DNA of 64,000 bases from Candidatus Nitrosopumilus sp. (GTDB taxonomy: Archaea; Thermoproteota; Nitrososphaeria; Nitrososphaerales; Nitrosopumilaceae), in contig QOOS01000001.1 in assembly GCA_003331425.1 (NCBI GenBank), positions 62,001 to 126,000 on the forward strand. The letters are read 5' to 3'. Under the pieces are notes generated by a model. That model saw only the letters and a list, made by a program, of their open reading frames with translations. It was not told the origin of the DNA and did no database searches. This document shows positions 29,785 to 47,936 of the stretch, piece by piece (within the stretch, counting starts at the first letter, position 1; the number at the start of each line of letters is the position of its first letter). Position numbers and translations under genes: made by a program.

Positions 29785-30162
29785 TTAATTTTTTCTTAAT
29801 TGAATGACTTTGACGATTCCAAATGCTGGAAGTCCGATGTACATTCCAAGATTCAATGCAATTACTGATAGTCCAAGTCCGAGAACTTCTGATTCAGTTT
29901 CTGCACTTTCCATGATTGCCAAAGTTGAGAGCATTGGTGTCAAACCAAGTTTGACTGCTTCTTTAAACATTGGACTTTCACGTTCCATGTCTGCAATTGT
30001 TGGTGAGAATGTATAGTACAACTCATTGAAACCAGACATAAATGCTGAACCAGATTCTGTGTTCATCAATTGGTTGTCACGAAGTTCTCTGAGCATCTGA
30101 ACTTGCGGAGCTAGTTCTGAGCCGTATGCTGCTGTTGCAATTAGACAACCGCCGCCTTCTTC
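29785..30162 (-). repeat. CFI-box module, copy B
   Basis: 378 bases coding for the EEGGGCLIATAAYGS to QLRKN* module, the same length as copy A. It ends with exactly the same last residues as copy A and has long runs of identical DNA, including third positions, although its host gene is a cyclophilin. Confidence 0.88.
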
Positions 30163-31326
30163 AGATTGTTGAATTATTTTTTCTTCTGTAGATTTTGATT
30201 CAAAAGATTGTTGTGATAGTATTTCAAATGAATTTACTGATTCAGTAAATTTTGAAAGATCATTATCAAAATTTTCTATTGTGTTACTATATGCAAATGT
30301 ATATAATTTTTCATTAGTAAATATCATTGCTTCTATAAATTTAATTTTTAATTCAACATCATCAACTACAAAAGTACCAACCGCTTCGGTTTGGTAAACA
30401 TTAGATTTTATTTTTTGTTGGTCAAGTATTTCTAATTTATTCAAATAAGATGCTTGATCAAGCATTTGATTTTTTTCTTCTATTAAATCATCTAAAGTTT
30501 TACCTATTGCATTTTTGATTGTTAATGATATGTATGGATTTACTCCATTAATTTCTGGTCCTACAGCCACAACATCAGGTGAATCTTCACTAGATTTTGG
30601 TGGTTGTTGCAATAACCATCCTACTGGTGCAGCAAATTTTACATCAAGTTCTTTATTTTCAAAAATTGTAAATTCAGGTATTGCTGTAACTGTAGAACCT
30701 GTACGAGAAGGTTCTGAGAGATTCATAATATTAGAAATTTCGGAACGCTCAACTATTGTAGCTGAAATTATTCTAACTTGTTCTGGATTGTTTGGTCTGT
30801 CATTAGATACTGTTTGAACTCCTGCAATTTTATCAAGAGTCTCAAAACTTGATTCAGTTACAATCCTACCAAAAACAGTATACTGTTCATCAAGAAAATG
30901 TGAATCTTGATGAACAATAAAGAATTGTGAGCCTGCACTGTTTGGATCTTGTGCTCTTGCCATTGAAACAATTCCTCTATCATGCTTAATGTTATTAAAT
31001 TCGGCATCTATTCTATCTGATAAAATTCCATTTCCACCTTGTCCCCATGTATTTGGATCACCACTAAGAGAATTTGGATCACCACTTTGAATCATAAACC
31101 CAGGAATTATTCTATGAAATAGTAATCCATCATAATCCCCATTTTCAGATAATAAAATAAAATTTTCAGTATGTTTTGGTGCATCTAAATGAAAAAATTC
31201 TATTATAATTTCACCTTGTGTGGTTTCTAAAATTACTATAGTATCCTCAACATTTTGTGCAAATGCGTAATTAGTGGAAATAACGATTATTAACGAAAAA
31301 AGTAAACTAAAAAGAATTTTTTTCAT
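29785..31326 (-). CDS. Exported cyclophilin with CFI-box C-terminal module
   Basis: 513 residues. A signal peptide (about 1-23) precedes a cyclophilin domain (about 28-195) with FHRIIPGFMIQSGD and a SQFFIV motif, the active-site region of peptidyl-prolyl isomerases. A second domain of about 150 residues (AAPVGWLLQQPP...) resembles PsbP/DUF1795-type beta folds. The CFI-box module follows from about residue 389. It should assist folding of exported proteins at the cell surface, where it would be fixed by the C-terminal module. The next gene downstream on the strand is on the other side of the metal block, so it is monocistronic. Confidence 0.88.
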   Translation of the reverse strand: MKKILFSLLFSLIIVISTNYAFAQNVEDTIVILETTQGEIIIEFFHLDAPKHTENFILLSENGDYDGLLFHRIIPGFMIQSGDPNSLSGDPNTWGQGGNGILSDRIDAEFNNIKHDRGIVSMARAQDPNSAGSQFFIVHQDSHFLDEQYTVFGRIVTESSFETLDKIAGVQTVSNDRPNNPEQVRIISATIVERSEISNIMNLSEPSRTGSTVTAIPEFTIFENKELDVKFAAPVGWLLQQPPKSSEDSPDVVAVGPEINGVNPYISLTIKNAIGKTLDDLIEEKNQMLDQASYLNKLEILDQQKIKSNVYQTEAVGTFVVDDVELKIKFIEAMIFTNEKLYTFAYSNTIENFDNDLSKFTESVNSFEILSQQSFESKSTEEKIIQQSEEGGGCLIATAAYGSELAPQVQMLRELRDNQLMNTESGSAFMSGFNELYYTFSPTIADMERESPMFKEAVKLGLTPMLSTLAIMESAETESEVLGLGLSVIALNLGMYIGLPAFGIVKVIQLRKN

Positions 31327-31485: not shown

Positions 31486-31857
31486 TTAGAATTTCTTTCT
31501 AATTCCAACAATGACTATTGCTGGAGCTCCTAGATACATTCCAATATTCAATGCAATTACTGATAGCCCAAGTCCGAGAACTTCTGATTCAGTTTCAGCA
31601 CTTTCCATGATTGCCAAAGTTGAGAGCATTGGTGTCAATCCAGCTTTTACAATCTCTTTAAACACTGGACTTTCACGTTCCAAGTCTGCAATGTATGGTG
31701 AGAAGGAGTAGTATGCTTCATTGAATCCACTCATAAATGCAGATCCTGATTCTGTATTCATTAATTGATTGTCACGAATTTCTCTGAGCATTTGAACTTG
31801 TGGAGCTAGTTCAGAACCATATGTTGCTGTAGCAATTAGACAACCGCCGCCTTCTTC
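31486..31857 (-). repeat. CFI-box module, copy C
   Basis: 372 bases. It matches copies A and B up to the hydrophobic helix, then diverges in the last 10-12 codons, ending IRKKF rather than QLRKN. The transition is abrupt, as expected for gene conversion with a defined end. Confidence 0.85.
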
Positions 31858-33195
31858 AGATGATTCTTGAGGTGCTGCTGCTGGTTCTTCAACAACTTCT
31901 TCAATTTTCTTTTCTCCAACTATTTCATCAACAACAACTAAAGCAAATTCAGTTTCTTGACCAGTATTTCGTATATTTTCAAATTTAATTATTGTTGGTC
32001 CTGTTTGATCCTCTGAAAATGTAAATTTTTCAAAATCTCCACCAACTTCAGCATTATCAGTTACTCGATGAATTTCTTCATTGTTTTGAATTATGACAAA
32101 TGTATAATCAGATAATCTCATTGGTGAATCAGTATAACTATCTCGAATAGTAAAAACAAAATTTGTAGGAACACCTGCTTCAATATCCATAGGATCCCAT
32201 GCTAAATTGACTTTGAATTCTTCACTTGCAGTATATGCAATTAAAGGAAATTTGGTTTCTTGACTTGCAACCAATTTAAACTCAATTTTATCAGGTAATG
32301 GTTGTTCTAATGCACGCATCTCATTTTTCAAATATCGAAGATGATCTTGCAATAAAACAAAATGAACTGTACGTTCATCATCATATGTATAATCATCAAC
32401 TGTAACTGAAGATTTGAATAATTTGATGTCATTTACATAACCAGTATAACTAGGACTCAAAAATTCTGCAAAGTCTTTTGGGAAATGTGTTTCAACATGT
32501 ACAACTGATACGTGGGACATTTGACTTTCATTCCAATCAAATGGCATGTCAAAAATTACTTCTTTAACATCAGGATTATATTGAAAATTAGATATTGAAT
32601 CAAAATATGATTTTGTACTAAATTCCACATCTACATTATTCTTATCCTTTTGAGGAAAAGGTTTGGATTCAACTATAGTTAAATCAGCAAAATACACACC
32701 AGAATCTTCTATAACATTTGTAGGCTCATCAATTGTTCTTATCTCAATTTCAAATGTATACAATCCACCTGAATTAAAGATAGGACCTGTAATTTCTACA
32801 GGATTTGATTCAGTCCCAGACCATGCTCCAAGTAGAGAATCTTGGTCTCCAACAATTGTAATATCCCCATCATCTGTTGGTGTTGCAATAATTGGTAGAA
32901 TTCCATTTTCAGCGAAAAAATAATTTCGTAATATCATTTCATCTTTGTAAAAAATTCCAATAAGATATGTTACATTATTTACATTTTCATCAGTTTCATT
33001 ATCTGTTGCAGTGATTGTAATTTGCTCCTGTTCATTTTCAAAATACATTGGCATTTCTATAGAAACAGAAAATTGTTTTTCTTGAATATTTATTGAAGAA
33101 ATTGTGTCAATTCCCAAACCATGTCCGTAAACACTACTTGCTGGAAATAACAGACAAAAGATGATTGAAAAAATTAAAATTTTTTTTATTGACAA
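31486..33195 (-). CDS. Exported HGLG-type surface protein with CFI-box module
   Basis: 569 residues. The signal peptide ends SSVYG and the mature start would be HGLGIDTISS. The body has VVHVETHFPKDFAEF and a VHFVLLQDHL segment shared with the proteins at 14207 and 16008. Those two end in WW repeats; this paralogue has instead a Glu/Ala/Pro linker and the CFI-box module from about residue 447. So the same core has been joined to different surface modules. It is probably exposed outside the membrane, and the N-terminal His could bind copper; both are inferred. The start ATG fits the signal peptide. Confidence 0.8.
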   Translation of the reverse strand: MSIKKILIFSIIFCLLFPASSVYGHGLGIDTISSINIQEKQFSVSIEMPMYFENEQEQITITATDNETDENVNNVTYLIGIFYKDEMILRNYFFAENGILPIIATPTDDGDITIVGDQDSLLGAWSGTESNPVEITGPIFNSGGLYTFEIEIRTIDEPTNVIEDSGVYFADLTIVESKPFPQKDKNNVDVEFSTKSYFDSISNFQYNPDVKEVIFDMPFDWNESQMSHVSVVHVETHFPKDFAEFLSPSYTGYVNDIKLFKSSVTVDDYTYDDERTVHFVLLQDHLRYLKNEMRALEQPLPDKIEFKLVASQETKFPLIAYTASEEFKVNLAWDPMDIEAGVPTNFVFTIRDSYTDSPMRLSDYTFVIIQNNEEIHRVTDNAEVGGDFEKFTFSEDQTGPTIIKFENIRNTGQETEFALVVVDEIVGEKKIEEVVEEPAAAPQESSEEGGGCLIATATYGSELAPQVQMLREIRDNQLMNTESGSAFMSGFNEAYYSFSPYIADLERESPVFKEIVKAGLTPMLSTLAIMESAETESEVLGLGLSVIALNIGMYLGAPAIVIVGIRKKF

Positions 33196-35466: not shown

Positions 35467-35772
35467 CTATTGTCCTAAGATGATAAACATCATAACTATA
35501 CCGTAGATTGCGATTGATTCGACCATACCTACGAAGATGAATACTTTTGATTGCAATGCTGGGTTTTCACTGATTACTGCAAGACCTGCTGCACCGACTT
35601 GACCTAAACCGATACCTGCACCAAATGCTGCAAGACCAAATGCTAAACCTGCACCAAGAATTTTCAATGATCCATCACTTGATGCACCATCTTCTTGTGC
35701 ATATGCTACACCAGTTGATCCGATAACTGAAATTACTGCTGCTGCCAAAAGTAACAAGACAATAGTTTTCAT
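35467..35772 (-). CDS. atpK: A-type ATP synthase subunit K (proteolipid ring)
   Basis: 101 residues. A leader-like hydrophobic N-terminus (1-25) is followed by two membrane helices. The first contains GAGIGLGQVG with Q58; the second has E85 in GMVESIAIYG, the ion-binding carboxylate. It forms the rotor ring in the membrane. Q58 is a residue also found in rings that can bind sodium, but I would not call the ion from that alone. It is the last gene of the K-orf-D-B-A-E cluster; the 51-base gap to the 43-residue ORF leaves room for a separate promoter and strong expression. Confidence 0.94.
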   Translation of the reverse strand: MKTIVLLLLAAAVISVIGSTGVAYAQEDGASSDGSLKILGAGLAFGLAAFGAGIGLGQVGAAGLAVISENPALQSKVFIFVGMVESIAIYGIVMMFIILGQ

Positions 35773-35823
35773 TGTAAATTGGACTCGATAGATTCCTTAT
35801 TTAAATCATGATAAGAATTTGAA

Positions 35824-35955
35824 TTAAATTTTGGATAGTGTTTTCTTTTTAAAACTAGATAGATCATCTTTGATAGATTTTGAAAAATTATCTTTATCCT
35901 GATCTAAAGATTTTTTGGAATCTTCAATTAATTTTTTTATTTGTTCTTTGGCCAT
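35824..35955 (-). CDS. 43-residue charged coiled-coil protein inside the ATP synthase cluster
   Basis: The ATG at 35955 shares one base with the atpD stop (TAATG), a classical sign of translational coupling. The product is 43 residues, rich in Lys, Asp and Ser, with a heptad-like hydrophobic pattern (IKKLIEDSKKSL...FSKSIKDDLSSF). It has no membrane helix. It might be a small stalk or assembly factor of the ATP synthase, in the place where other archaea have subunits F, G or H, but it is much shorter than any of these. It is not recognised as a known family. Confidence 0.6.
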   Translation of the reverse strand: MAKEQIKKLIEDSKKSLDQDKDNFSKSIKDDLSSFKKKTLSKI

Positions 35956-36587
35956 TATTTCCTACTCTCCATCTTAGCCTTCACTTTTTTTAACTTTGCG
36001 AATTCTTCTCTTTCTCTTTCTTCAAGAGTAGCAAGAATGAATCTAATTTTATGCTGATATTGAGGAATAATTACATTTTCTAGCGCATTTAGCAGTTTTT
36101 GTGTTTTTTCTAGTGCTTTTGCAAGGCTAAAAATAGAATTTTCATATTCTGCAGCTTTACAAATTTTTGGCAATAATTCTTTGATTTGTTTTGCCCCTCT
36201 ATCAATTGAGGAATTAGTATCTGCAAATCCATAAGGCATTGATTTTGTATCTTTTTCAGTTACTGACAATGCAGGAATTTTAACATCAACAACTCTTCTA
36301 ACATTTACATCAACTTCCATTACAGGAGGAGTAGACTCTGCAACAGAATCAACAGTATTGGTGCCTAATGCTAGATATGCTTCATTAACAGATTTGTAAA
36401 TATCTTGTAATGGATCCCAAATTCCGCCTCTAGCTTTTGAAGCCTCTTCAATCATTTCTTCAATATTTTTTAACAAAACTTTACGTTTATCATCTAAGAT
36501 TCCCTGTACCATTACAGCAACTTGACTTGATTTTTTGTATTTGAAAAGTTCAATTTTTGTAGCAGCGACATTTTGTCCAAATGACAT
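35955..36587 (-). CDS. atpD: A-type ATP synthase subunit D (central shaft)
   Basis: 210 residues, almost entirely helical, with the N- and C-terminal long helices that form the rotating shaft (TKIELFKYKKSSQVAVMVQGILDDKRKVLL at the N-terminus). The middle region (about 90-125) carries the beta part, with VNVRRVVDVKIPALSV. It follows atpB by 4 bases. The stop overlaps the start of the 43-residue ORF by one base. Confidence 0.94.
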   Translation of the reverse strand: MSFGQNVAATKIELFKYKKSSQVAVMVQGILDDKRKVLLKNIEEMIEEASKARGGIWDPLQDIYKSVNEAYLALGTNTVDSVAESTPPVMEVDVNVRRVVDVKIPALSVTEKDTKSMPYGFADTNSSIDRGAKQIKELLPKICKAAEYENSIFSLAKALEKTQKLLNALENVIIPQYQHKIRFILATLEEREREEFAKLKKVKAKMESRK

Positions 36588-36591
36588 TTTA

Positions 36592-37977
36592 TTATTCGCC
36601 CTGATAATATTTTTCTACGTGCTTATCTTTAATTTTAGTAATCTCGTTCTTTGGTAATTTTGAAACAATCTTCCACAAAATTGCAAGTGTTTCTTCAATT
36701 GTTCTATTTTCATCAGTTGCTTGTGAAAGGAATTCTTTTTCAAAGACATCACCGACATCCATGTATTTCAAATCAATTTCAGTTAATCCTGCTTTACCTA
36801 CAATTCCTGCTAATGCTCTAACTTCTTGTGCTCTTGAATAAGCATCATAAACTTGGTTAGCAACTTCAGCATGATCATCTCTTGTACTTCCTTCACCAAT
36901 TCCGTCTTTCATTAATCTACTAAGACTCATCAAAATATTGATTGGTGGATATACGCCTTGTCTGAATAAATCTCTACCAACTACTACTTGACCTTCTGTA
37001 ATGTAACCAGTAAGATCAGGAATTGGGTGAGTAATATCATCAGATGGCATTGATAAAATTGGAACTTGTGTTACACTTCCTTTTTTACCATTTAGTTTAC
37101 CGGCTCTTTCGTAAAGAGTTGAAAGGTCAGTGTAAAGATAACCAGGATATCCTTTTCTTCCAGGAACTTCCTCTCTTGCTGCACTAATTTCTCTTAATGC
37201 TTCTGCATAGTTTGTCATATCTGTAAGAATAACTAAAACGTGCATTCCTAATTCAAATGCCAAATACTCTGCAACAGTTAATGCTACACGAGGAGTGATA
37301 ATTCTTTCAATTGCAGGATCGTCTGCTGTATTCAAAAATAGAACACTTCTTTTTAGTGCACCAGATTCTTCAAGACTTTTTCTAAAGTATTCTGCTTCAC
37401 TGTATTGCACACCAATTGCTGCAAAGACTACAGCAAAATCATCATCAGTACCAACTACTGATGCTTGTCTTGCAATTTGTGCTGCTAGTAAGTTGTGTGA
37501 CATACCAGAACCTGAAAAGATTGGAAGTTTCTGTCCCCTTACAAGAGTAATTAATCCATCAATTACAGATACACCAGTTTGAATGAAATCTTTAGGATAT
37601 TCACGTTGTTCTGGATTCATTGGTTCACCATTAATGTCAATAAATTTATCAGCAATTGGATCAGGTAATCCATCTTTTGGTCTTCCTAATCCATCAAAGA
37701 CTCTACCAAGTACTTCTTTGGATACTGGCATTTCCATAACTTTACCAACAAATTTTGCATTGGTTCCAGAAATAGATAATCCAGTAGTTCCTTCAAAGAC
37801 TTGGACGATTGCTTTACCGTTTCCAACTTCAAGAACTTTACCTAGTCTTCTTTCGCCATCATTAGTTTCAACTTCTACAAGTTCGTCAAATGCTGCATTT
37901 TCTACATCATCAACAACTACGAGAGGTCCTTTAATTTCAGCAATTTTGCTGTATTGAACTCCGCCTTCGGTGGTCAA
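36592..37977 (-). CDS. atpB: A-type ATP synthase subunit B (non-catalytic)
   Basis: 461 residues. It has the beta-barrel, nucleotide-binding and C-terminal domains of subunit B; the Walker A position reads SGSGMSHN rather than GxxxxGKT, which is normal for the non-catalytic B subunit. It alternates with subunit A in the hexamer. Its start overlaps the atpA stop by 4 bases (ATGA), showing translational coupling. Confidence 0.96.
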
Positions 37978-39752
37978 TTTGTAACTTTCACTCCTGAAAT
38001 ATTTTTGAATTGTTCTTTCATATCGTTTTCTAATTGATCAAGTTTTGGCATCTCATCATCTTTGATATCCATTCTTGCTTTAAGCAATGATGTGACAACA
38101 GGTAATTCACGAATTGAAGCAAGTGATGCTCCTTCTTTAAGAGATTGTTGACCTTGTTTGTAGAAATCAACAACTAATTTCAATAATTTGAATTGTTTCT
38201 CTGGACTACAGTATGTATCAACATCGTCAAATGAGTTTTGTTGAAGGAGACCAATCTTTACCATTCTTGCAATTTCTAAGATGAGTTTTTCTTCATCAGG
38301 TAATGCATCTGGACCTAATAGTTTTACAATTTCTTTTAGAGTATCTTCTCTTTGTAAAATTCCATAAGCTTCATTTCTAATTCCAAACCAATCTTCACTG
38401 ATATTTTCACCCCACCATTTTGCAATATCGCCAAGATAACCAGAGTAACTGTTCATCCAGTTAATTGATGGATAGTGTCTAGAGTAAGCAAGTTTTGCAT
38501 CTAATGCCCAGAAAGTTTTGATAAATCTCATTGTGTGTGTTGTAACTGGTTCTGTAAAGTCACCACCAGATGGTGAAACAGCACCAATCAAAGTTACAGA
38601 ACCATCACGGTCTGGACTTCCGGCTGCTCTAACACGACCTGCTCTTTCATAAAATTCTGCTAATCTAGATGCAAGATAAGATGGATAACCTTCTTCTGCT
38701 GGCATTTCTTCTAATCTACCACTCATTTCTCTTAGTGCTTCAGCCCATCTACTTGTTGAATCTGCTACAAGAACGACGTCTTTACCCATATCTCTGTAAT
38801 ATTCTGCAATTGTAACTCCGGTGTAGATACTTGCTTCTCTTGCTGCTACTGGCATGTTACTAGTATTTGCAACAAGGACAGTTCTATCCATTAGAGGTTT
38901 TCCACTTCGTGGATCTTTAAGATGTGGGAATTCAACTAATACTTCAGTCATTTCATTTCCTCTTTCTCCACATCCAATGTAAACAACAACTTGTGAGTTA
39001 GCCCATTTTGCAATTTGGTGTAATGTAACAGTTTTTCCAGTTCCAAATGCTCCAGGAATTGAACCAGTTCCTCCTTTAGCAATTGGGAAGAATGTGTCAA
39101 TTACACGTTGTCCAGTAAGTAATGGAACTGTTGCATCATATCTTGTGTTATATGGACGTGGTTTTCGTACAGGCCATTTATGATACATTTTGAGTGGAAC
39201 GTTTTGACCGTCTTTTTCAACAGTTGCTAATTCAGTTTCTAAATTATAATCTCCTTCAGATACAAGGTTTGAAATTTTTCCGCCAGGGTGGTTTGGTGGA
39301 ACCATAATAGAGTGTTCAATAAGATCAGTTTCTTGAACAGTTCCAATTACATTACCTGGTAAAACTTCATCGCCATTACTTGCAGTTGGAACAAAGTGGT
39401 ATGTCTTCTCCATATCAACAGGAGTTGTAGTAATACCTCTACCAATGAATGATCCAGATGCTTTTGATAATTCTTTTAGTGGTCTTTGAATTCCGTCATA
39501 AAGTTGTCCAATAATTCCTGGACCTAATAATACACTGAGTGGGTTTCCGGTTCCAATTACTGGTTCACCTGGTTTTAATCCACTGGTTGACTCATAAACT
39601 TGAATAAATGCTACATCTCCGGTTAGTCTAATTACTTCACCGACTAATTTTGAATCTCCAACTGTGACAGTTTCATACATTTTGGCATCAGCCATTCCAT
39701 CAGCTCTAACTGCTGGACCGCTTACCCATACAATTCTGCCTTGTGCTGTCAT
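37974..39752 (-). CDS. atpA: A-type ATP synthase subunit A (catalytic)
   Basis: 592 residues with the catalytic Walker A GAFGTGKT (234-241), the insert region (about 110-200) that distinguishes A/V-type catalytic chains from bacterial ones, and [22 protein letters not shown]. It makes ATP in the head of the complex. No intein is present. It starts one base after the atpE stop and overlaps atpB by 4 bases, so E-A-B-D are one transcript. Confidence 0.97.
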
Positions 39753-39753
39753 C

Positions 39754-40368
39754 TTATTCTTTTACCCCGAATTTTGTTGCAATTTCTTTCCTAATTAAAG
39801 GCTTTAATCGATCGATCTTTGCGTCAATAGTATTATCGAATTTCATAGCTCCATCTTTAGATTGGATTTTAACACCACCAATGCATTCAATTGTTTCTGA
39901 TGATAATTCAGAACCAGCAAAACTACCCAATGTTGATTGTACTACATCACGATCTTTAGAATTTGTAAATACTGTAACTTCAGATGTTCCTAAGACTTTA
40001 GTTGATTCATCTAATAATGATTTAATGAGATTTGCATAATCGCCACTGCGATCAGAATTTGAAATTTCTTCTACTGCTTTTGTGAAAACTCTAGAAACAG
40101 CGTCTTCAACGGCTAAAAGTTGTTTATTTCTGGCTTCAATGTCAGAACTTCCAACTATTTGTTTTTCTAGTTTGTCTGCCTCTTTTCGTCCATCTGCAAC
40201 AATTTTATCATATTCATCCTCTAATTTAGTCACAGAATTGTCAAGAGTTTGATGAGAATCGCTAAGTGCTCCATCTAAATTGGACAATACATCCTGTTCA
40301 GTTTGATCGAGAATCTTGTCAATCGTCTTTTCAAGAGAAGAATTTGCCAATATCACGCGTTTACCCAT
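39754..40368 (-). CDS. atpE: A-type ATP synthase subunit E (peripheral stalk)
   Basis: 204 residues. A long N-terminal helix, acidic and rich in Ala, Leu and Lys, is followed by a globular C-terminal domain ([41 protein letters not shown]), as in archaeal subunit E. It ties the head to the membrane part. It is the first gene of the minus-strand ATP synthase operon and is divergent from atpI across 76 bases, so head and membrane stator genes share a promoter region. Confidence 0.93.
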
Positions 40369-40444: not shown

Positions 40445-42544
40445 TTGGCAATAGCTGATCTGAAACTCGGAAGTATAATTTTACCAAGATCTGAGTCGCC
40501 AAAAGCCATTTCTAGATTAACTGAATTTGAATGGTTTCACAAAATTGATACTGATAATGATACAGTAACTCCAGAAATTGATGATTTGTTGTTAGAGGCC
40601 CAAAAAACATACCAATCCATTGACGATGTAATCAAAGGTCTAGGAGTGCCACCTATGGTAGGAATTCTTGAGATTATGTTCAAAGGAACAATGATCAAAA
40701 AGAAAGACTATGAAATTGACGAAATCGAAGATATGGTAAATGACTTGATTAAAAGAACACCATCAATAATTGATGAACCTACTAAACTTTTAGAAGACCA
40801 AGCCGATACAAAACGCTCACTTGAAGAATATACATCACTTAAAGAAACACTAGAAGTTGCAAAGAAGCTAAACATTGATCTTTCAGGATTTGGATTAATG
40901 AAATATTTTTACACAAATCTCTTTGTTGTTGATTCAAAAGATTATGAGGAAATCAGCAGAGCATTAGATGGCATTACATTTTACAAATATGATTTAGCAC
41001 TAAAAGAAAAATCTGCAATTTTAGTAATTGCCAGTGTAGAGGATTCTGATAAAGCACTCAAAGTACTCAGAGGTTTCAATGCAAATCCATTTTCCATTCC
41101 TGAAGGAATTCCACAAGTACCAGCCCAGGCATATTCAATGGCTGAGGCTAAAATTAAAGAATTAACTGCAAAGCAATCAACACTAACAAAACAAGTTGCA
41201 AAAATTACAAAGAAAATTAGACGTGATATTTTAGCAATTCATGAAGAAGCTCAAGTTGCAAAAGATGTACTTGAAACATTAAGAAAACCAGGTGGAACTA
41301 AGAACTTTGCAGTAATTCAAGGATTCATTCCAGTAAAGATGGAAGAGAAATTTAAGAATGCAACTAAAGAATGGATGTCTGTTTCTGAAGATGTTACAGA
41401 TCCTAAATTAAAAGAACAAGTTCCAACTCTATTTGATAACAAAAAATTTGTTAGAACATTTGAGGTAATTACAGAAAGTCAGGGAATTCCAAGAAAAGGA
41501 GAAGCTGACCCAACACCAATGATTGCTTTAATGTGGCCAATTTTCTATGGGTTGATGTTTGCAGATGTAGGCCACGGATTATTGTTAATGGGAATGGGAT
41601 TATTATTCAAATTCAAAGGACAAGGTAATCTTTCAAGATGGGGAATGTTAATTGCAATCTCTGGAGCATCTGCTGCTATTGCGGGTGTTGGAGCTGGTGA
41701 AGCGTTTGGATTCCACCTAGATCATATGGGACCATTAGAAGGATTATTAGAAGAAGGAGGAGCTTTACATTCAATAAGTTGGCTTGTAGGAATTATCAGT
41801 GTTGCAGAATTAACATTTGAACAAGTAATCAATATTCTCAAAGTATCATTATTCATCGGAATTGTACATTTAGTTTGGGCAATGATTCTACGTGTTAAGA
41901 GATTAGCTCAAGAAGGTCACAAATTTGTAATGTACATGGAAGCAATTCCAAACATCACACTATACGGTGGAATTGTAGTAATTATGATGTGTGCAATTGG
42001 TGCAAACTATGATGTAATGAACATGTATTCCAAAGTACACACTGAAGCAGTTCCTTGGGTAACAGTATTCTTAGGAGATTGGGCTCAAGTTTGGATTGTC
42101 TCAAGAATTGCAGTAATTATCGTACTTGTATCAATGACAATGATGATGATAGGAGGAATCATGCATGCAAAGAAACATCCTGAAGATGGAGGTTCTGCGG
42201 CAAATGTCGTAATGGAAGTTTTCCTAGGAAAAACAGTAGAAGCGTTAGCTCACACAATCAGTTATGCCAGACTTGGAATTATGCTGCTAGTGCATGCTGC
42301 GTTATTGATGACAGTTAACAATGCATTCAAGTCTCTAGGAGGAATGGAATCAGGTGCAGCAATGGCAATGATTATTGGAGGAAACTTGGGAATTATGATG
42401 ATTGAAGGATTAATTGTATACATCCAGTCACTCAGATTGCACTTGTATGAATTCTTTACAAAATGGTACGATGGTGGTTCACAACCATTTAGACAAATTA
42501 GACCAGAGTTGATTTACAATCAATTCATTTGGAAGAAAAAATAA
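40445..42544 (+). CDS. atpI: A-type ATP synthase subunit I (a-subunit)
   Basis: 699 residues from a TTG. The cytosolic N-terminal half has coiled-coil stretches (about 95-145 and 230-285). The membrane half from about 355 has seven to eight helices, including the conserved GLMFADVGHGLLL and SYARLGIMLL, in which the Arg contacts the ring carboxylate. It carries ions past the rotor ring. It is divergent from atpE and convergent with the methyltransferase gene. Confidence 0.96.
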   Translation: MAIADLKLGSIILPRSESPKAISRLTEFEWFHKIDTDNDTVTPEIDDLLLEAQKTYQSIDDVIKGLGVPPMVGILEIMFKGTMIKKKDYEIDEIEDMVNDLIKRTPSIIDEPTKLLEDQADTKRSLEEYTSLKETLEVAKKLNIDLSGFGLMKYFYTNLFVVDSKDYEEISRALDGITFYKYDLALKEKSAILVIASVEDSDKALKVLRGFNANPFSIPEGIPQVPAQAYSMAEAKIKELTAKQSTLTKQVAKITKKIRRDILAIHEEAQVAKDVLETLRKPGGTKNFAVIQGFIPVKMEEKFKNATKEWMSVSEDVTDPKLKEQVPTLFDNKKFVRTFEVITESQGIPRKGEADPTPMIALMWPIFYGLMFADVGHGLLLMGMGLLFKFKGQGNLSRWGMLIAISGASAAIAGVGAGEAFGFHLDHMGPLEGLLEEGGALHSISWLVGIISVAELTFEQVINILKVSLFIGIVHLVWAMILRVKRLAQEGHKFVMYMEAIPNITLYGGIVVIMMCAIGANYDVMNMYSKVHTEAVPWVTVFLGDWAQVWIVSRIAVIIVLVSMTMMMIGGIMHAKKHPEDGGSAANVVMEVFLGKTVEALAHTISYARLGIMLLVHAALLMTVNNAFKSLGGMESGAAMAMIIGGNLGIMMIEGLIVYIQSLRLHLYEFFTKWYDGGSQPFRQIRPELIYNQFIWKKK

Positions 42545-45929: not shown

Positions 45930-46598
45930 ATGAAGGGAAAATCAAAAGGGAAATTAGCAATTTTTGATACATTCAAGACTAAAGATAACGATCTAACAGG
46001 AGAAGCAAAAAGACAAAGAGCGATCATCACAATTCTTGGAAGTGGTGGAAATCCCGCTGAAAGAACAAGAACAGGGATTTCGCAAAAAATTGCAAAAAAG
46101 CAAGAAATTGCTTGGAAAAATATCTACTCTGGAATTTTTAGAGATCTAGATGAAATTTTACTTCCAATGGAGATCGCAGAAGAAGATGGCAGATTACCAC
46201 TAAAAAGAGGACCTAAAGCATTACAAGAAAAAGGGATTCCATATTATCATTTAACAAAAAAAGGAATTCTAGTTGGATTAGCAATTAATGGAATAGAAAA
46301 TATGTCATTACAGTTAAAAGAATTTTTTTCAAAATCAGATTCAAAAGATAAAGAATTTGAGAAAATTTTGATGAAATTCATGACTAATAGTCCAAATTTC
46401 ACCTATTCAATTTTTCAAAAATATGTAAAAGCATTTTGTGAAGATAAAATTGAGGAATTATTACCATTTGATCTTACAAAATTAAAGGATATATCAGATG
46501 AAAGTCTAATTATTCAAAAAGAAATTCTTGCAGCATTTTTGAAATTTACAAATCCAGAAAAAAAGGAAGCAACCGCATTTTTAGATAAAATTGGGTAA
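45930..46598 (+). CDS. Conserved-looking protein of unknown function (222 aa)
   Basis: 222 residues, cytosolic, basic N-terminus (KGKSKGKLAIFDTFKTK). A central winged-helix-like part (SGISQKIAKKQEIAWKNIYSGIFRDLDEI then RLPLKRGPKALQEKGIPYYHLTKKGILVGLAI) looks like a regulator of the PadR/MarR kind, in which the wing ends in a TKKG turn. The C-terminal half is helical. It is divergent from amt across 128 bases, so it may control amt, but this is only inferred. GGTGAT 6 bases before the ATG serves as ribosome-binding site. Confidence 0.7.
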   Translation: MKGKSKGKLAIFDTFKTKDNDLTGEAKRQRAIITILGSGGNPAERTRTGISQKIAKKQEIAWKNIYSGIFRDLDEILLPMEIAEEDGRLPLKRGPKALQEKGIPYYHLTKKGILVGLAINGIENMSLQLKEFFSKSDSKDKEFEKILMKFMTNSPNFTYSIFQKYVKAFCEDKIEELLPFDLTKLKDISDESLIIQKEILAAFLKFTNPEKKEATAFLDKIG

Positions 46599-46656: not shown

Positions 46657-47691
46657 ATGGGCAAAAACGTCTATGCATCCGTAAAATCATACAGCCAAAG
46701 AGGCAAATTACTCAATAGATCCGATTTTCAGACATTAGCAGAATCAAGAGATCTTGAAGAATTAATGACTAGAATCAAAAATACAATTTATGGTGATGCA
46801 GTTTCAGATGTTCAAAAACCATACACCTCACAAGTAATAGAATCAGGACTACGAGGACATTTAGCAGATGTACATTATTCAATTGCTAAAACAGCTGGAG
46901 ATTCACCAATTTTAGATGCATATTACATGAAATTCATTGTATCAAATTTGAAGTTAATTTTGAAAGGAAAGGTATTAGATAAATCACAAGAAGAAATTGA
47001 AACTCACATCAACTTACATGCTGAAGAACTTATCAAACAAAGAGACATCATAATCAAAGCACTAGTTTCCAAAGATCTTGAAGAAACAGTTGCCAGTTTG
47101 AACTCTGTACAATTTGGTGAAGAAATTTCAAAAGCTGCAGCACTATACAATGAACAGAAAAATCTTCAGATTTTTGACACATATTTTGATAAAATTTTAT
47201 ATCTTCAGTTAGGTCGTGCTTTAAAAAATACTAGAGACAGAGACGTGATTAAATTAGTTGGAATGGATGTTGACTTCTATAATCTTCTAAGTGTAATCAG
47301 AGGAAAATTATGGGGTTTAGAGGAAGCACAAATTCAAGATTTGATTGTTACACAAACAGCTACAATTACAAAAGAATTGTTAGGAAGAATGATTTCTGCT
47401 GCATCAATTAGAGATGCATTTGGTGAATTAACAAATACAAAATATAAGAATTTGATTTCTCAAAATGAAAATGAGTTAGATGCAGTAGCTGAATTTGAAA
47501 GATCATTTGAAATGGCACTTTATAACGCATCAACTAGATCATTTTCAAAAATGTTTAGTTTTGCAACAATTGTGGGAATTACAAAATTGACCTCATTTGA
47601 AGTTAGAAACTTAGCAGCAATTGCATATGCAGTAGAACAAAAAATTCCTACTGAAGTAACAATGTCGAAATTAATCGTACAAGAAGAATAA
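46657..47691 (+). CDS. atpC: A-type ATP synthase subunit C (collar)
   Basis: 344 residues, nearly all helical, with the family pattern YASVKSYSQRGKLLNRSDFQTLAES at the start and the three-fold repeated helical bundles of subunit C/d. It caps the rotor ring and links it to the central shaft. It is 4 kb away from the rest of the ATP synthase genes, followed 8 bases later by a small membrane protein gene. A TATA-like ATTAAAAT at 46627-46634 is about 26 bases before the ATG. Confidence 0.92.
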   Translation: MGKNVYASVKSYSQRGKLLNRSDFQTLAESRDLEELMTRIKNTIYGDAVSDVQKPYTSQVIESGLRGHLADVHYSIAKTAGDSPILDAYYMKFIVSNLKLILKGKVLDKSQEEIETHINLHAEELIKQRDIIIKALVSKDLEETVASLNSVQFGEEISKAAALYNEQKNLQIFDTYFDKILYLQLGRALKNTRDRDVIKLVGMDVDFYNLLSVIRGKLWGLEEAQIQDLIVTQTATITKELLGRMISAASIRDAFGELTNTKYKNLISQNENELDAVAEFERSFEMALYNASTRSFSKMFSFATIVGITKLTSFEVRNLAAIAYAVEQKIPTEVTMSKLIVQEE

Positions 47692-47699
47692 TTTGTAAA

Positions 47700-47936
47700 A
47701 TGATTAGATTCCCTAAAAAGAAAAACGATATTTCAACAGAGACTATGATTAATACAATTTGGGTTAGTACCTTCATGGGCATGATTTTCTCATTACCGCC
47801 ATTAGGAATTTTCTTAGGGATTTACTTTGGTACAGGGAATTTAGTAATTGGAGCAGTTTTAGGTTTTGGAGTCCATTTTGTAACATTAGCATTTGCTAGT
47901 AGAATCTCTAAATTTTTAACTCAAATAATGAGCTAA
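47700..47936 (+). CDS. Small two-helix membrane protein after atpC
   Basis: 78 residues. Basic start (IRFPKKKND), then two membrane helices (about 22-42 and 46-67). It begins 8 bases after the atpC stop and is surely co-transcribed with it. The position suggests a role in assembly or anchoring of the ATP synthase, similar in idea to the small AtpI/UncI proteins of bacteria, but without recognisable homology. Confidence 0.72.
   Translation: MIRFPKKKNDISTETMINTIWVSTFMGMIFSLPPLGIFLGIYFGTGNLVIGAVLGFGVHFVTLAFASRISKFLTQIMS

Follow-up and report, generated by a model that had tools for sequence, protein, structure and literature searches.

Between atpD and atpK in the genome of an ocean ammonia-oxidising archaeon (AOA), Candidatus Nitrosopumilus sp., lies an open reading frame (ORF) of only 43 codons. 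Is this frame a gene and, if so, which part of the ATP synthase could it encode? The frame lies in a stretch of 64,000 nucleotides that was analysed as a whole (hereafter, the window). An earlier note on this DNA had described it as an unrecognised gene coupled to the ATP synthase operon, possibly for an overlooked small stalk or assembly subunit, in a cluster from which subunits F and H were absent. Our verdict is that the frame is a real gene in a known slot, apparently encoding a distant counterpart of a known but poorly studied subunit, whose position in the enzyme is unproven.

On the minus strand the genes follow each other in the order atpE, atpA, atpB, atpD, the small ORF and atpK, while atpI is divergent and atpC is found further right, both inside the window (Table 1). 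The identities of atpB and atpI are presumed from sequence features and, for atpB, also from position. As the earlier note had it, the small ORF opens with TAATG on the atpD stop and precedes atpK: the stop codon TAA (35957-35955) and the ATG (35955-35953) have one base in common. Of the 80 related loci examined (the best of 89), 75 have a TTTAAATA box ahead of atpK, which we interpret as an archaeal TATA box; in 48 it is 33 nt from the script-called atpK start. This TATA-like sequence suggests that atpK is probably driven separately by its own promoter, in which case the E-A-B-D transcript would end with the small gene.

Table 1. Features of the ATP synthase locus and of the subunit H candidate; coordinates are those of the window unless a contig or locus is named.
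Feature	Coordinates	Strand	Basis or remark
atpK (c-ring proteolipid)	35467..35772	minus	PF00137, 4.4e-18
TTTAAATA box, TATA-like	35798..35805	minus	33 nt before the atpK start
Small ATPase gene ("epsilon-like")	35824..35955	minus	43 codons, ATG start; ORF list, conservation, dN/dS
atpD	35955..36587	minus	PF01813, 4.9e-51; stop overlaps small-gene start (TAATG)
atpB	36592..37977	minus	ORF; presumed from position and sequence features
atpA	37974..39752	minus	PDB chains of A-type/V-type ATPase subunit A, best 5.8e-232
atpE (peripheral stalk subunit E)	39754..40368	minus	PF01991, 2.8e-17
atpI (divergent)	40445..42544	plus	ORF; presumed from sequence features
atpC	46657..47691	plus	PF01992, 2.9e-55
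Subunit H candidate	G000:C1:41937-42269		111 aa; beside NAC and a PUA-domain-like protein; also L033:1453-1788

The earlier note had proposed to look for the frame at the same place in relatives and to determine its dN/dS. A single-sequence search gave clear matches (E <=2.1e-7) in 31 of 61 genomes, all from one genus. Six genomes of this genus were missed: four lack atpD in the assembly, one has a partial atpD match only, and one (G021) carries a diverged copy that can be seen by eye. Restriction to a single genus, first suggested by this search, was abandoned when reading of the slot between atpD and atpK showed order-wide presence. With a 29-row profile the frame was found to be kept in 131 of 200 family genomes at E <=7.3e-6, a count of the matches listed, among which none falls between E 7.3e-6 and 9.6e-4. 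Lengths and spacings were determined in the best 80 of 89 loci from named genomes (Nitrosopumilus, Nitrosarchaeum, Nitrosopelagicus, Nitrosomarinus and others). The small gene is present in all 80, with a product of 43 aa in 74, 41 aa in five and 37 aa in one. In one relative (L296:3973-4083) a 37-aa version results from an in-frame 18-nt deletion. The atpD stop codon starts between -5 and +5 nt relative to the small-gene ATG in all 75 measurable loci, and 2 nt ahead of it, as in the window, in 47 of them, which bears out the proposal of a genuine gene translationally coupled within the operon. For 72 distinct 43-codon sequences the pooled pN/pS was 0.31 and the median dN/dS 0.19, with values below 1 in all 2282 scored pairs; both alternative forward frames are interrupted by stop codons in every one of the 72 sequences. 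The small gene is under purifying selection. We consider it practically certain that the ORF is a real gene, and it is presumably translated in vivo.

The word "unrecognised" holds only insofar as no family passes the cut-off in Pfam and none is matched in NCBIfam. The literature searched on crenarchaeal and AOA ATP synthase subunits, including the epsilon subunit of Sulfolobus acidocaldarius, yielded no account of the small gene, which would thus be an addition to the list of ATP synthase genes. The S. acidocaldarius operon is reportedly the subject of a paper by Denda.

The genes following atpD were read by eye in 47 operons of the order, the operon type being assigned from neighbouring genes and not from a tree. 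In the A-type layout a charged ORF of 41-57 aa comes straight after atpD in 23 of 23 operons; at a few of these loci (e.g. G060 of family f12, and G021) the part that was read did not reveal atpK. In the V-type layout, in which subunits H and I follow, the small gene is absent from all 21 operons and the position after atpD is occupied in each by an ORF of 39-52 aa with one hydrophobic helix. Three operons of families f7 and f13 pass from D directly into C and have neither type of small ORF. Among the operons read, the small gene segregates perfectly with operon type. This amounts to a genetic rule, epsilon with the A-type and a membrane ORF with the V-type, by which subunit composition becomes testable in complexome data.

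Does the small protein have known relatives? The gene for the membrane-associated ATPase epsilon chain of Sulfolobus (PF08112, ATP-synt_E_2) was first taken as the presumed counterpart; the homology test described here is independent of this assumption. PF08112 exceeded its cut-off in five of 121 Thermoproteota genomes, each of them from f35, as well as in the control, S. acidocaldarius. At f35 loci this epsilon is located exactly between atpD and atpK (6 of 6 read), and an f35 sequence scores 43.1 against a gathering cut-off of 25 bits. The window protein gave no PF08112 match at E <=1 and a close relative none at E <=10, nor did PF08112 pick out the slot in the window's genome. Judged by the Pfam criterion, the window protein does not belong to PF08112.

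We then searched six frames of the 121 genomes with a profile, A3, for which 13 slot ORFs were taken from Nitrososphaerales families other than that of the window (f1) and which contains no Sulfolobus sequence. The slot gave the best genome-wide match in 14 of the 16 A-type f1 genomes and was also the top match in five of seven f25 genomes. A3 matched the slot in three of six f35, three of three f30 and two of nine f26 genomes, and in none of the four f20 and two f45 genomes. For f35, f30 and f26 together, 8 of 37 listed matches fall inside the 250-nt slot, with a binomial probability of about 5e-26 under a rough null that ignores relatedness and overstates the significance because the genomes are related. 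The A3 match beside atpD in a V-type genome (G068) was subunit H and not epsilon, and in two f35 genomes of one genus the top match was the N-terminal helix of subunit E.

Profile-profile comparison with hhalign scored 35.5 for f1 versus the other Nitrososphaerales families (reversed 22.8; 200 column shuffles <=15.2) and 24.2 for the latter versus Sulfolobus epsilon (reversed 14.2; shuffles <=14.8). With the Nitrososphaerales families and with f25, scores are about 35, against 23 and 15 for the reversed controls. Those with Sulfolobus, 20 and 24, are modest (reversed 14); they exceed the shuffles and the corresponding reversed control, yet the worst score of an unrelated reversed profile is higher. 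In other families of the Nitrososphaerales and in further Thermoproteota, divergent ORFs occupy the D-K slot; those of f20 and f45 did not score clearly over the reversed control, and their relationship is unproven.

That A3 matches the slot in both f1 and f35 makes it likely that the small gene is the AOA counterpart of crenarchaeal epsilon, even though the Pfam model itself does not match. The two proteins have in common the atpD-epsilon-atpK slot, detection by A3 in half of the f35 genomes, a charged helical sequence of about 50 residues with a 3.7 repeat, and a C-terminal resemblance (I-K-R-K-x-L-K-E-I and F-K-K-K-T-L-D-R-I). They differ in length (52-53 aa for Sulfolobus epsilon, 43 in the window) and in the PF08112 match. 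Taken together, the A3 and profile-profile results point to an old epsilon family that is probably spread through Thermoproteota, PF08112 covering one branch. Searches of the PDB with the small-protein profile and with Sulfolobus epsilon retrieved only designed proteins, CorA, MogR and similar, and no such chain by sequence; nor did an AOA ATP synthase structure turn up there, the closest subunit A chains being from other lineages. Weak second matches of the window protein to a frame of about 100 aa (E about 0.02-0.4 per genome) are probably chance; the four that were fetched (G035, G007, G024 and G045; L354, L355, L357 and L353) are subunit F.

AlphaFold2, run with 30 sequences, predicts a single helix over residues 2-41 (mean pLDDT 95). 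The hydrophobic repeat of the window protein peaks at 3.75 residues, and in each of the seven slot-ORF groups the peak falls at 3.67-3.75, power at 3.5 being low, so that the 11/3 or 15/4 repeat of a peripheral stalk, and not that of 3.5, is found in the small protein. The E-H stalks of A/V-type enzymes are right-handed coiled coils, and E and H stalk helices have a repeat of about 3.70. As a background we took 783 stretches of 43 residues without proline from 58 proteins encoded in the 64 kb: a power of at least 8 occurs in four, of which three are in the 3.64-3.79 band, all in subunit E. The median for f1 sequences is 9.3. The N-terminal stalk helix of subunit E is thus the sole other protein segment of the window with strong periodicity in this band, and it shows local similarity in Sulfolobaceae-like genomes; the small protein differs in having no globular C-terminal domain. 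The profile scores of epsilon with E and with H do not exceed those of unrelated reversed coiled coils (E against reversed H gives 37, more than any epsilon-E score), which speaks against a direct origin from E or H; the reading of the small ORF as a truncated E or H was rejected on this comparison.

The explanation that we favour, with a probability of about one half, is that the small protein, as the AOA counterpart of epsilon, is a true subunit of the A-type ATP synthase, or its obligate partner, and braces the E(-H) peripheral stalk. Its gene would be the last of the E-A-B-D unit and be translated through coupling to the end of atpD, hence alongside the soluble and stalk subunits, atpK being separately driven. 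The protein would fold into one amphipathic helix of about 40 residues; its repeat of 3.67-3.75 residues fits a right-handed coiled coil such as that of E-H stalks. This helix would most likely pack on the E(-H) stalk, bracing it or adjusting its length. The gene, its conservation, its slot, its link to the A-type operon, the predicted helix and the periodicity are shown here; complex membership and stalk position are inferred, and the chances that the stalk helix is the correct reading are about even. Against it, a helix of 43 residues is short beside E and H, subunit D helices also peak near 3.69, though more weakly, and the profile similarity to E and H does not exceed that of periodic controls. 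The suggestion of an overlooked stalk or assembly subunit stands in part: a conserved A-type ATP synthase gene for which a stalk helix best fits the sequence pattern. It is to be amended in that the gene is not without relatives, because it is the apparent counterpart of Sulfolobus epsilon in the same D-epsilon-K slot. More tentatively, A-type enzymes of Thermoproteota, most marine AOA included, may possess an overlooked constitutive epsilon helix in the stator, possibly derived from a copy of the E stalk helix; it might have been inherited with the A-type enzyme and lost upon replacement by the V-type, the slot then being taken by the one-helix membrane subunit.

Alternatively, the small protein could be an inhibitor helix, like mitochondrial IF1 or cyanobacterial AtpTheta, that blocks wasteful ATP hydrolysis as the proton gradient falls. 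It is indeed small and charged with a single predicted helix, as expected of such ATP synthase-associated proteins, and energy-starved organisms would profit from one. AtpTheta is described as a small protein preventing ATP hydrolysis that is separately regulated and highest in darkness (PMC9241938), whereas the small gene is start-stop coupled to atpD within the operon. Both known inhibitors differ further in belonging to F-type enzymes, IF1 being eukaryotic, and no sequence match to either was found. An inhibitor would not need the conserved right-handed coiled-coil repeat, and neither Pfam nor NCBIfam gave a family match to any inhibitor. Such a role appears unlikely.

A helper in assembly or stability, acting on D, E/H or the c-ring but absent from the finished enzyme, is likewise unlikely. 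The slot between D and K would suit such a protein, and a type-specific helper is expected to have no copy in V-type operons, as observed. Strict coupling to atpD and a near-constant length rather suggest stoichiometric production, and ATP synthase assembly factors are often encoded apart. The helix could also be associated with the rotor, packing on the D coiled coil in the central stalk, since the small gene adjoins and is coupled with atpD and the D helices show a weak 3.69 repeat. The periodic power of D is only about 5, against the f1 median given above, and the small-protein profiles score low against D (12 to 16, four groups tested); we regard this position as doubtful.

The absence of subunits F and H from the cluster, mentioned in the earlier note, is true for the window, but candidates for both exist elsewhere in the genome; F and H are thus not missing, and the small gene is not a stand-in for either. 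Subunit F is encoded on another contig (G000:C10:69780-70019; 52 bits, over the cut-off). The H candidate lies outside the window, about 20 kb before its start (C1:62001). It scores 23.6 bits with AhaH, against a cut-off of 48.5, and its best NCBIfam matches are V-type ATP synthase subunit H (PRK08404, 7.9e-6) and AhaH (4.2e-5); a PDB search with it returned nothing useful. It is found in 34 of 37 genus genomes, its own included (E <=7e-17), and also in other families. A crude motif identified a same-strand NAC gene, in most cases immediately upstream, in 26 of the 30 loci fetched; the NAC and PUA genes are so named from sequence features. Family f17 has a PUA-like protein, NAC, H and atpC in succession, then atpI and the E-A-B-D-epsilon part, and in f16 the match to H is flanked by NAC and atpC, with F-E-A-B-D-epsilon-K coming next. 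These arrangements suggest that H stayed with NAC when the cluster split in the window's family. We thus propose the NAC-adjacent gene as the location of AOA subunit H; a comparison by Wang et al. (2019; PMC6863869) counted eight of nine subunits and stated that a clear H homologue had yet to be reported in neutrophilic AOA.

Could the small gene itself be a shortened, "missing" subunit H? Like archaeal H (AhaH, TIGR02926; V-ATPase G), the product is a charged, ATPase-linked helix with a similar periodicity, V-type operons have H shortly after D, and four of six f35 genomes gave no AhaH match, the other two only weak ones. Archaeal H is, however, about 100-111 aa long, no NCBIfam model including AhaH matches the small ORF, and the NAC-adjacent protein offers a separate H candidate, in AOA as opposed to Sulfolobus-type f35. 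Since an H homologue adjoins epsilon-bearing operons in f17 and f16, H and epsilon occur together, and a shortened H is very unlikely. Finally, a chance open frame or non-coding conserved element, conceivable because short ORFs are common and many in the window's ORF list, is already refuted at the sequence level by the dN/dS, the closed alternative frames, the in-frame deletion and the order-wide slot ORFs.

Some further observations concern neighbouring genes. Between atpD and H, AOA V-type operons contain a conserved ORF with one hydrophobic helix, mostly 41-42 aa long and often with a TTG start on the atpD stop (e.g. L334:10539-10664 in G104; also L358-L367, L372 and L373, just after atpD). 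For one of these proteins neither Pfam nor NCBIfam gave a match; the ORF may encode a tenth V-type subunit. Directly after atpC, positions 47700-47936 (plus strand) of the window encode a 78-aa protein with two hydrophobic stretches, for which no Pfam family and no meaningful NCBIfam match was obtained and which could be an AtpI/AtpZ-like helper; a similar-looking 87-aa ORF is found near atpC in G037 (L337:11169-11432). A function-unassigned protein of 222 aa (45930-46598, plus strand) has relatives with a TFKT...FTGEA.RQR stretch adjoining atp operons of both types (L336 in G038, L337 in G037, L334 in G104). Two adjacent exported-looking proteins (29785-31326 and 31486-33195, minus strand) have similar C-terminal regions of about 110 residues beginning GGGCLIATA.YGS, a tail which we take to be CFI-box-like.
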